Below are positions 43,479 to 46,147 of a stretch of 64,000 nt of DNA, in pieces; the first letter of the stretch is position 1, and the number at the start of each line of letters is the position of its first letter. Both the position numbers and the translations under genes were made by a program. The notes under the pieces are model-generated. The model saw nothing but the letters and a program-made list of their open reading frames with translations. It did no database searches and was not told the DNA's origin. The DNA is from Silvimonas amylolytica (lineage in GTDB: Bacteria; Pseudomonadota; Gammaproteobacteria; Burkholderiales; Chitinibacteraceae), in assembly GCF_014645555.1 (NCBI RefSeq), contig NZ_BMLY01000001.1, positions 887,939 to 951,938 of the forward strand, written 5' to 3'.

Positions 43479-44498
43479 ATGGAAGACCAATCTGCAAAAA
43501 AAGACAATGTGACGGTGCAGGATGTCGCGCGTGAGGCGGGGGTATCGGCCAGCACGGTGTCACGCTATCTGACTGGCGTGACAGGTGTCTCCAAAATCAA
43601 GCAGGAGGCAATCTCCCGCGCGATCGACCTGTTGAACTTCACGCCTAATGTACTGGCGCAAAGCCTGAAAACAGGCAGCACCAAGACCATCGGCATCATT
43701 ACCCAGGATCTGGGCTCCCCTTTCTTTGGTGAAGAACTCAAAGGGGTGGAACACGCCATTTCAGGTACTGGCTACGCGCTCTTGATCGTGAGTGGCCATT
43801 GGCAATCCCGTGAGGAAAAAGATCACGCGGAATTGCTCATCGGCCGAAGAGTGGATGGCATCATCATCTTTACGACCACCTCCAGCGACAAGCAGATCCT
43901 GGCATTATCAAGACAAGTACCCGTGGTGATCACGGGTCGCCGTCTGGATGCCCTGCCCCGTGCGCTGGGTCTGGCAGTCGATAACGAGATGGCTGCATTT
44001 GAGGCGACGCAATACCTGCTCAGTCAGGGACACCGCCGCATTGCGCATATCTGTGGCCGTCTGGGTCAGCCTGATGCGGAAGAGCGCCTGCAAGGTTACA
44101 AGCGCGCACTGCAGGAAGCCGGCATTGCGGTAGACCAGCGTTTGATTGCCAGCGGCGATTTCACCGAAACCGGCGGCGTACTGGCGATCAATCAGTTACT
44201 GGAATCGCGCAGCCCGTTTACTGCCATCTTTGCGGCCAACGACCAGAGCGCCCTGGGCGCGCGGTTGGGGTTGTATCGCCGGGGGATTCGCGTACCGGAA
44301 GAAATCTCATTGATCGGGTTTGACGATCTGGCGGTTTCCAATTACATGCTGCCGCCCTTGACCACGATCCGTCAGCCCACATTTGATCTAGGGCGGCTGG
44401 CCGGGCAAACATTGCTGGGCATGCTGCAAGGTTCGACCACACCGGTCGTGCAACCGCAGTTCGAACTGGTGAAGCGCGAATCCGTCCGACGGATCTGA
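43479..44498 (+). CDS. LacI-family transcriptional regulator (LacI-3) of the beta-glucoside operon
   Basis: 339 residues. Helix-turn-helix VTVQDVAREAGVSASTVSRYL (about residues 10-30), hinge LNFTPNVLAQSLKTGSTKTIG, and a sensor domain with SPFFGEELKGVEHAI, IFAANDQSALGARLGLYRRG and DDLAVSNYMLPPLTTIRQP. It is divergent from the transporter operon, and three shared palindromes identify it as the likely repressor of that operon and of the beta-glucosidase. Confidence 0.9.
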   Translation: MEDQSAKKDNVTVQDVAREAGVSASTVSRYLTGVTGVSKIKQEAISRAIDLLNFTPNVLAQSLKTGSTKTIGIITQDLGSPFFGEELKGVEHAISGTGYALLIVSGHWQSREEKDHAELLIGRRVDGIIIFTTTSSDKQILALSRQVPVVITGRRLDALPRALGLAVDNEMAAFEATQYLLSQGHRRIAHICGRLGQPDAEERLQGYKRALQEAGIAVDQRLIASGDFTETGGVLAINQLLESRSPFTAIFAANDQSALGARLGLYRRGIRVPEEISLIGFDDLAVSNYMLPPLTTIRQPTFDLGRLAGQTLLGMLQGSTTPVVQPQFELVKRESVRRI

Positions 44499-44530
44499 AA
44501 CACCTGTTATTTGAAGTTGTTACAATGCCG

Positions 44531-44570
44531 CAGCGGCCTGGATCTGATGATCCGGCCGCTGTTGTTTTTT
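44531..44570 (+). terminator. Terminator after lacI-3
   Basis: CAGCGGCC (44531-44538) pairs with GGCCGCTG (44554-44561), with an inner GGATC/GATCC stem, followed by TTGTTTTTT. An extended -10 (TGT-TACAAT, 44518-44526) lies just before it and could start a separate short transcript. Confidence 0.75.
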
Positions 44571-44592
44571 AATCAGCACAGGAAGATGAACC

Positions 44593-44826
44593 ATGAAAAC
44601 CCGAGGCAAAACCCTGGTGCCGCGCAATCCGTTTGCGCTGGCAGCCAGCCAGCGACACGCCGGCGCGCACGACAAGCGCCACAAGATTAAACGGCGTGAC
44701 GACAAACAAGCGCTCAAGCGCGAATTGCTCGAACGCGGGTCGTCGCAAATGAAAAAGGGAGGCAGTTTTGTGCCTCCCTTTCTTTTTGCCCATCGTTTTC
44801 CACAAAGTGCTGTTTCAGCGCGGTAA
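44593..44826 (+). CDS. Small basic protein with a terminator inside its reading frame (nonstop-type gene; possible ribosome-rescue factor)
   Basis: The frame encodes 77 residues, but a perfect 11-base terminator hairpin (44754-44781) sits before the stop codon, so most transcripts should end inside the frame and lack a stop. The expected product is about 55-63 residues and strongly basic: MKTRGKTLVPRNPFALAASQ, then RHAGAHDKRHKIKRRDDKQ and ALKRELLERG. AGGAAG lies 7 bases before the ATG. E. coli arfA and relatives use the same logic: their mRNA is cut or terminated before the stop, so the factor accumulates only when trans-translation fails. The protein is not clearly an ArfA homologue. The last 12 bases overlap the convergent gene at 44815. 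Confidence 0.6.
   Translation: MKTRGKTLVPRNPFALAASQRHAGAHDKRHKIKRRDDKQALKRELLERGSSQMKKGGSFVPPFLFAHRFPQSAVSAR
44754..44786. terminator. Bidirectional terminator within the small basic gene
   Basis: AAAGGGAGGCA (44754-44764) and TGCCTCCCTTT (44771-44781) form a perfect 11-base stem with loop GTTTTG. CTTTTT follows on the plus strand and TTTTTC on the minus strand. It serves the convergent gene at 44815 and truncates the plus-strand message. Confidence 0.85.
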
Positions 44827-45387
44827 AGCCGGTAGCGGCACCGGATTGATCGCCGGTGTGTGGGCCGCATTCAGCATCATCACCATCCCCGTAAAGTAAC
44901 CGATCAACCCCACCAGTTCGACAACCCCTTGTTCTTGCCACTGTGTCAGTGCGCGCTGCCAGGTGAGATCGCTGATGCCCTTGTTGCGCATCAGCTCCAT
45001 GGTGAAGTCATAAGCCAGCGCTTCATCCACAGCCATCTGCTGTGGGCGGGCACCCTGTGCCAGTTCATCCAGCGTGGCTTGAGCCACACCTGCATCGCGT
45101 GCCAGCGGGTAATGCACCGACCACTCAAATGGCTCACTCCATTCACGCGCCACAATCGCTGTCACCCATTCGTTGATCCGTCGCGGCAAGATGCTGTCGT
45201 AGCGCAGGTATTCACCGACGCGCTGAATGCGATCCATCAGTTCCGGGCTGCGCAGCAAAGGCACAAACGGGCCTTTTACACCTTTGCGCGGGCCGTCGAT
45301 CAGGGCTTGGGCCGCTTTGCGCTGGGCCTCGTTGAGCTCATCCATGGCCAGTGGCGGTAGCCGGTCGGGCCTTGTGTGATCGTTCAT
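44815..45387 (-). CDS. Carboxymuconolactone decarboxylase (CMD) family protein
   Basis: 190-residue all-helical protein. The CMD core runs from RINEWVTAIVAREWSEPFEWSVHYPLARDAGV through DEALAYDFTMELMRNKGISD and VVELVGLIGYFTGMVMMLNAA. The EWSVHYPLARDAG segment lacks the CxxC pair of AhpD-type peroxidase members, so a thiol peroxidase role is unlikely. Reaction unknown. It starts 52 bases downstream of the AlaX gene on the same strand. Confidence 0.85.
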   Translation of the reverse strand: MNDHTRPDRLPPLAMDELNEAQRKAAQALIDGPRKGVKGPFVPLLRSPELMDRIQRVGEYLRYDSILPRRINEWVTAIVAREWSEPFEWSVHYPLARDAGVAQATLDELAQGARPQQMAVDEALAYDFTMELMRNKGISDLTWQRALTQWQEQGVVELVGLIGYFTGMVMMLNAAHTPAINPVPLPALPR

Positions 45388-45439: not shown

Positions 45440-46147
45440 TCATGCAAGCGCCACCACCACGCGCTTGTTGCGAGCACCTTTGCTTTCAATCTTTTTGACG
45501 ATCACGGGGCCAATCTCACCGGTACGCGCCACATGCGTACCACCACAGGGCTGCAGATCAACGCCTTCAATTTCAATCAGCCGGATTTCCGGCAAGTGCA
45601 GCGGCGGCGTCACAGACATGGTCTTGATCAGCTCTGGTTGGCGTTGCAGCGCCTCGCCACTGGTCATCTGTACGCGCACCTGCCGATCCTCGGCAATCAG
45701 CCGGTTCAGTTCAGCCTCGATGTGATCTTTGTCTAGCTCCATATCTTCAGGCAGATCGAAATCCAGCCGGCCGGATTCTGCCGTGAGATTCCCGCCCGTG
45801 ACACCGGCTTTAATCACCACCGACAATAAGTGCAGACAGGTATGCACACGCATGTGCGCGTGGCGCCGTTGCCAATCCAGCGTAAGCGTCACCGGGGTGT
45901 CTGGTGCCAGCGGTGCAGCGCCAGCACCTAACACGTGATGGATCTCGCGTGTTTCCTTGTCCCGGCGGGTGTCGGTAATGGTCAATTGCGTGCCATCGGC
46001 CAGGGTGAGCGTACCGGTATCGCCAGGCTGACCGCCACCCAAGGGGTAAAACAGGGTTTCACTGAGTACCACCCCGCTTTCATCGTGCCGCACAACCGTC
46101 GCCGTCAGCGTTTGCTGGTATGGATCAAAATAAAAGCGCTCTTGCAT
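45440..46147 (-). CDS. Alanyl-tRNA editing protein AlaX (AlaX-M type)
   Basis: 235-residue free-standing editing domain that hydrolyses Ser- or Gly-charged tRNA-Ala. The catalytic zinc motif is HMRVHTCLHLL (HxxxH), with the second pair in LQPCGGTHVARTGEIG (CxxxH). The N-terminal glycine-rich segment FYPLGGGQPGDTG identifies the longer AlaX-M form. It complements AlaRS proofreading. Start ATG at 46147; it is divergent from glaH. Confidence 0.92.
   Translation of the reverse strand: MQERFYFDPYQQTLTATVVRHDESGVVLSETLFYPLGGGQPGDTGTLTLADGTQLTITDTRRDKETREIHHVLGAGAAPLAPDTPVTLTLDWQRRHAHMRVHTCLHLLSVVIKAGVTGGNLTAESGRLDFDLPEDMELDKDHIEAELNRLIAEDRQVRVQMTSGEALQRQPELIKTMSVTPPLHLPEIRLIEIEGVDLQPCGGTHVARTGEIGPVIVKKIESKGARNKRVVVALA

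Follow-up and report, generated by a model that had tools for sequence, protein, structure and literature searches.

The small gene at 44593-44826 (+ strand; ATG start, 77 codons, 77 aa) in the window, i.e. the whole stretch of 64,000 nucleotides analysed here, contains an intrinsic terminator within its own reading frame and ahead of its stop codon. Comparison with relatives supports this nonstop design well, and it is very likely to be real and selected. The explanation that best covers the whole, to which we give a probability of roughly 0.6, is that the product is a small basic protein from a family not described before, which would be titrated by tmRNA and would act on stalled ribosomes. 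The regulatory design is already known from ArfA and BrfA, while the protein family appears to be new and is not ArfA by any sequence test made. The family, its breadth and its link to rtcB appear to be undescribed in the literature and family libraries that could be reached, subscription journals lying mostly outside the search.

The terminator inside the reading frame

The earlier note on this DNA, made from the sequence alone, had described a small basic frame with a good ribosome-binding site, and this description held: the ORF is preceded by the Shine-Dalgarno sequence AGGAAG (44580-44585, +), as read from the sequence. Codons 1-46 (44593-44730, +) form the conserved core domain, in which KPRNPxA is followed by an R/K-rich stretch with GxH; in the alignment of the family, GxH is nearly constant and the second half of the core is basic. 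Over codons 1-45, six Silvimonas pairs together showed 73 synonymous and 17 non-synonymous codon differences, indicating that the small protein is under selection.

A perfect 11-base terminator had also been placed within the coding sequence, ahead of the stop codon, and it was recovered there with all 11 pairs and in frame. The hairpin (44754-44781, +; AAAGGGAGGCAGTTTTGTGCCTCCCTTT) has a perfect 11-bp stem with 6 G-C pairs and is directly followed by the U-tract CTTTTTG (44782-44788, +), with which the conserved block of the Silvimonas alignment ends. Folded alone, the 28-nt hairpin reached -19.0 kcal/mol, and the 51-nt region around it reached -24.1 kcal/mol (z = -4.87), with 0 of 200 shuffles as good. 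No Rfam family was detected at gathering score between 44400 and 45000, where four sub-threshold matches overlap the hairpin. Intrinsic terminators release the RNA about 7-8 nt past the stem. In the window the TAA stop starts 43 nt beyond the final stem base, which is well beyond the expected release point. The 3' end of the mRNA is predicted at about 44786-44789, and the nonstop product would comprise approximately the first 64-65 residues. The tail of the ORF including the stop codon (44789-44826, +), which is unconserved from the U-tract up to the end of the convergent gene, is predicted to be mostly untranscribed.

Four Silvimonas genomes were aligned, the nearest named relative found being Silvimonas terrae. 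Conservation of the DNA starts at the ATG, extends through TTTCTTTTTG and then collapses; past the U-tract it resumes only where the convergent gene is reached (44815-45387, - strand; weak carboxymuconolactone-decarboxylase match just below the Pfam cut-off). Within the conserved block the window carries one 15-nt insertion. Within the hairpin, variation is confined to the loop and a single outermost base of the stem, which is still able to pair as G-U, and the distance from stem to stop is 43 nt in two of the genomes and 52 nt in two. The final 12 bases of the small ORF overlap the convergent gene, and the stop codon of the window lies inside that gene, so that it need not be kept as the stop of the small gene. 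In this alignment, selection ceases where the RNA is predicted to end and not at the stop codon, which is the most telling single fact for this gene.

Upstream lies a LacI-family regulator (43479-44498, +; Pfam), and a second terminator-like hairpin (44531-44561) plus TTGTTTTTT occupies 44531-44570 (+) between it and the small gene. The fold of 44526-44575 has -28.1 kcal/mol (z -6.12). This hairpin is shared by the window and S. terrae, was not found in the other two Silvimonas genomes, and probably terminates the transcript of the LacI gene. The sequence TGTTACAAT (44518-44526, +) is a possible extended -10 element for the small gene, inferred by inspection and absent from the promoter-scan output for the window. 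It stands directly ahead of the hairpin, which ends 31 nt before the ATG, so that the transcript might start with an attenuator-like hairpin. Among the 38 nonstop or edge loci (see below), 8 have TTACAAT or CTACAAT at a distance of 25-110 nt upstream; none of the 53 others does.

Recurrence of the design in relatives

Members of the family were recovered from 18 of the 43 genomes in the window's taxonomic family (profile or protein searches), from 49 of the 300 in the order (profile search), and from 26 and 28 of the 369 in the class with two different profiles. The class searched was Gammaproteobacteria of GTDB, which we take to include the former Betaproteobacteria, and taxonomic words attached to genomes with G handles are those that we infer. 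Two profiles with no sequence in common, one built from 13 sequences (the window's family and three MAGs) and the other from 23 sequences mainly outside the order, matched each other with an hhalign probability of 98.6 over 45 columns. Many of the homologues have Shine-Dalgarno sequences. A further test in family f32 (3 of 5 genomes) yielded no new carrier. One genome of the class (G586) has two diverged family genes, L088 and L101.

The terminators were surveyed at 91 loci from the same order and class, with second copies of the same place and L100, which has an internal stop, left out. In the strict terminator scan, 34 of the 91 loci have a terminator with at least 6 nt between its end and the stop codon; this is not an unbiased frequency, because the loci were gathered with profiles partly seeded by nonstop members. 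The terminator lies on or beside the stop at 4 loci and after the stop at 6, and 47 loci show none. The 34 nonstop loci represent 12 numbered families and two of the three Neisseriaceae MAG loci, and the hairpins vary among families (GGCGGGA..TCCCGCC, GGCTCGAAAGAGCC, ACCATCTG..CAGGTGGT and others). Among control ORFs of at least 100 codons, which were non-overlapping, called mechanically and taken from the same loci and the window, only 3 of 310 had a strict terminator before the stop (Fisher p 2e-21), and two of these three are family hairpins viewed from an overlapping or opposite ORF. When the downstream DNA was shuffled, a mean of 0.25 of the 91 loci was nonstop over 20 rounds. By these sequence comparisons the in-frame terminator is not due to chance. 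Two of the 47 loci without a terminator (L045 and L047) pass a looser scan, which also flags 49 of 397 control ORFs, overlapping spurious ORFs included.

It had been proposed in the earlier note that the transcript is probably nonstop, following the design of arfA, and the recurrence of this arrangement with differing hairpins, together with the end of conservation at the U-tract, bears the proposal out. Homologues with a stop codon before the hairpin, which the note had named in advance as refuting it, do exist: they are the 6 loci with the terminator after the stop, and they show that only some members of the family have the nonstop design. Since 57 of the 91 loci lie outside the strict nonstop class, control by tmRNA is not a constant trait across the family.

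Mapped onto a tree of the core protein sequences, the nonstop state requires 15 changes, compared with a mean of 27.7 for shuffled states, a clustering to which near-copies contribute. Well-supported branches force at least 4 changes of state; the tree rests on only 46 columns, so that the order of gains and losses cannot be given. At the four edge loci (L004, L022, L044 and L089) the stop codon is on or directly beside the terminator, and these genes are possible intermediates between the ordinary and the nonstop form.

Known rescue factors and the rtcB neighbourhood

No Pfam, NCBIfam or PHROG family was found over cut-off for the window protein. The 23 gamma-type members gave no Pfam match at E 1, and 32 other members matched nine Pfam families, each in one or two members, with a best E of 0.0057. 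The family profile had no match among PDB sequences. Searches of phages and of viral contigs with one member as query each, and of plasmids with three members as queries, found no relatives. The window protein has neither a match to a hydrolase domain of the ArfB or release-factor type nor the GGQ motif. In an AlphaFold2 model made from a 5-sequence alignment, residues 13-55 form one helix (mean pLDDT 67, pTM 0.30); this single-helix model of low confidence is a hint at most and gives no information on function, and a basic core with one helix would be compatible with a peptide that binds ribosomes or RNA.

Two candidate identities were rejected. The peptide had been described as not clearly an ArfA homologue, and ArfA identity is now excluded, as the ArfA profile (PF03889) matched neither in the window's own genome nor in the scanned proteins, and profile comparison by hhalign gave probabilities of 0.9 and 0.1 per cent. 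The KGKGS motif is missing from the window protein and from the family consensus. Mimicry of the SmpB tail was considered for a superficial likeness, HDKRxxxK (window protein hmmscan E 0.022), that occurs in 1 of the 32 members of set A3. It was dismissed, as 426, 660 and 728 of 1000 shuffled tails matched or beat the real tail of the own genome's SmpB with three family profiles.

The genome of the window (4.56 Mb) has one tmRNA gene (E 3e-80) with the tag ANDETYALAA, and SmpB (E 4e-54), so that tagging and destruction should be the normal fate of the small product, as they are for ArfA and BrfA. It also encodes a protein of the ArfB type (NF006718, E 3e-53), which means that an additional rescue factor is not obviously needed. 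In the order, ArfB was found in 180 of 300 genomes and ArfA in 4, all of one genus; none of these 4 is among the 49 carriers of the family, and 4 genomes are too few to prove mutual exclusion. Absence of ArfB was not significantly enriched in carriers of nonstop members, whether these were defined strictly (11/22 vs 109/278, p 0.37) or more loosely (13/24 vs 107/276, p 0.19). One genome of genus g189 (G383; L132 381-1103) has a PF03889 match with KGKGSYQRK and is not a carrier, and another genome of that genus (G521) carries the small-protein family.

As a positive control, the four ArfA loci of genus g54, presumably Neisseria, were analysed in the same way, and a terminator before the stop was found in 4/4 by folding and in 3/4 by the strict scan. 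No such terminator was seen at L131, the fifth ArfA locus, which comes from a different family. Schaub et al. are said to have reported in 2012 on nonstop mRNAs of ArfA, with a terminator result for Neisseria gonorrhoeae. ArfA has KGKGS as its mRNA-channel motif, recruits RF2 to nonstop ribosomes and is essential without tmRNA. At the sequence level, the small family resembles the form of ArfA with a terminator in the ORF, being likewise small and basic with an intrinsic terminator before the stop, but differs in having no PF03889 match, no KGKGS and no profile relation. The C-termini of ArfA that are encoded by the terminator read PPFL or PPFF (two of the four loci each), and the C-terminus of the window type looks alike, a similarity that the shared coding constraint would lead one to expect. 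Nonstop arfA mRNA arises via termination or through RNase III (PMC8012679).

The best documented parallel is BrfA of Bacillus subtilis, which resembles the window gene in design. Its active product of about 62 residues is made from a nonstop mRNA that arises through a Rho-independent terminator inside the ORF; this terminator was demonstrated by reporters, and the protein accumulates without SmpB (PMC6881298). BrfA is described as limited to Bacillus (PMC8874680). ArfT of Francisella tularensis is also a small basic peptide; the string KKGGS is found both in its published charged stretch KKGGSTNKK (PMC6299226) and in MKKGGSF of the window protein, a comparison of motifs only. In the family this string is not part of the conserved core; in the window protein most of it is encoded by the terminator, and it is present only in that protein and some relatives. 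The arfT gene has no terminator before its stop (PMC6299226), whereas the window gene does.

An rtcB gene lies upstream on the same strand at 22 of the 91 loci (12 families), 7 of which have nonstop and 15 ordinary-stop members. One of these proteins was identified as RtcB with PF01139 (E 3e-130) and the others by similarity to it. The one RtcB tested against TIGR03073 ("release_rtcB"), which was taken as the prfH-linked form from the name of the model only, scored 154.8 bits, below the cut-off of 271.8. RtcB-type ligases repair cut RNA. In the rtcB2-prfH pair, an RtcB paralogue works with the release factor homologue PrfH, and the targets are ribosomes with cut or damaged RNA in the 16S decoding centre (PMC9223846). 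The small gene likewise adjoins a gene for an RtcB-family ligase, but its product has about 60 residues and no release-factor domain. The genome of the window has no rtcB, and 62 of the 91 loci have neither rtcB nor protein X (described below) in the stretch examined. In G062 and G563 rtcB appears in two frames. At one locus (G384; L149 1543-1698), all that is left of RtcB is a stretch matching its last 52 residues, and the family gene downstream of it is intact and has its terminator in frame, so that an adjacent intact rtcB is seemingly unneeded there. In two families, f7 and f9, ordinary-stop members follow hslU at 39-69 nt (L041, L042, L050-L053 and L059); hslU was identified with TIGR00390 (E 5e-204) for L052, and at the other loci by a like C-terminal sequence.

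At 6 of the 22 rtcB loci a protein of about 320 residues, here called X, is encoded between rtcB and the family gene, and in G679 it is upstream of rtcB. At seven further loci X is upstream and there is no rtcB in the stretch examined, L144, L146 and L154 having been viewed over longer stretches. At six loci the reading frames of X and of the family gene share 4 nt. Two X proteins were scanned, and neither had a Pfam or NCBIfam match. From this gene order, X may be a new component of RtcB repair operons. Examples are L142 3685-4659, L145 1310-2263 and L147 3871-4821, with motifs like LIEEIQxDWxREA and PPRSLYTDLPRQFCF.

Proposed function and alternatives

The mechanism that we infer, which includes the mRNA 3' end, tagging, induction, ribosome binding and the partner of the small protein, would operate as follows. 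The mRNA of the small gene would end in the U-tract, inside its own coding sequence, and ribosomes would reach this 3' end and stall. Tagging with ANDETYALAA by tmRNA-SmpB would then lead to destruction of the product. When trans-translation is absent, inhibited or overloaded, an untagged protein of about 64 residues would escape and accumulate, and its likeliest task would be to deal with the very problem that allows its appearance. Through its basic core it may bind ribosomes whose mRNA channel is empty or damaged and promote the release of these ribosomes, probably together with a release factor in the manner of ArfA and BrfA. That rtcB is so often a neighbour suggests that the problem includes ribosomes with cut RNA.

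The best reading of the sequence data is that the family would be a new, widespread, tmRNA-titrated factor of ribosome rescue or ribosome damage. Taken by itself, action of the product in ribosome rescue is reasonably probable, and cooperation with RNA repair is possible, with the odds slightly against it. Equally tentative is a wider proposal: the proteins might be a separate and widespread beta-/gammaproteobacterial family of rescue peptides, controlled by tmRNA, in lineages without detected ArfA and within the RtcB repair pathway. Such a peptide would appear once the cutting of mRNA saturates trans-translation, and would clear ribosomes with cut mRNA or rRNA, or mark them for repair by RtcB.

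The ORF is short and without a database family over cut-off, as would be expected if there were no protein gene here at all and a small RNA ended at the terminator, with the frame open by chance. This is barely credible, given the purifying selection seen codon by codon, the recovery by protein profiles of homologues across the class, many with their own ribosome-binding sites, and the lack of any Rfam family over cut-off. The alternative offered in the earlier note is that the hairpin belongs mainly to the convergent gene and that read-through is common; in this case, or with a bidirectional terminator, the late stop would be a harmless drift. This explanation draws on the A- and T-runs that flank the hairpin on both sides, and on the nearest downstream ORF, which in the window and at 22 of the 34 nonstop loci is convergent and frequently no more than 40 nt away. 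At 11 nonstop loci, however, this ORF is co-directional (one locus has none in the stretch examined), so that a convergent gene cannot explain the whole pattern and the alternative fails as a general account. Differing hairpins recur in 12 numbered families, control ORFs almost never show the arrangement, and conservation stops exactly at the U-tract of the + strand. We therefore regard this explanation as very unlikely; the hairpin may also serve the convergent gene in the window.

The architecture speaks equally for a product that is titrated by tmRNA and has another job, such as a signal, an inhibitor or an RNA-binding regulator (e.g. an accessory of RtcB repair or a peptide that protects ribosomes), made when trans-translation is saturated. 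The linkage to rtcB, and that of ordinary-stop members to hslU in other lineages, would fit such a role, as would the failure to find ArfA similarity or a match to any family model over its cut-off. Against it, ArfA and BrfA, the compared proteins of the same design, are both rescue factors, and the family gene is intact with its in-frame terminator at the G384 locus, where only a remnant of RtcB is left. Another job is thus rather unlikely, and action on stalled ribosomes is preferred.

In an order where ArfA is rare and ArfB is found in 180 of 300 genomes, the family is a directly testable candidate for a backup of trans-translation. The link to rtcB joins the fields of ribosome rescue and RNA repair, as already shown for rtcB2-prfH. 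The family was found through its architecture, a nonstop design that would sense its own conditions of need, which suggests a general search for rescue factors among small genes with a terminator ahead of the stop codon.

Past the convergent gene, 45440-46147 (- strand) encodes a protein similar to the alanyl-tRNA editing protein AlaXM (NF040865, E 3e-62, below the cut-off of that model), another translation quality-control gene nearby.
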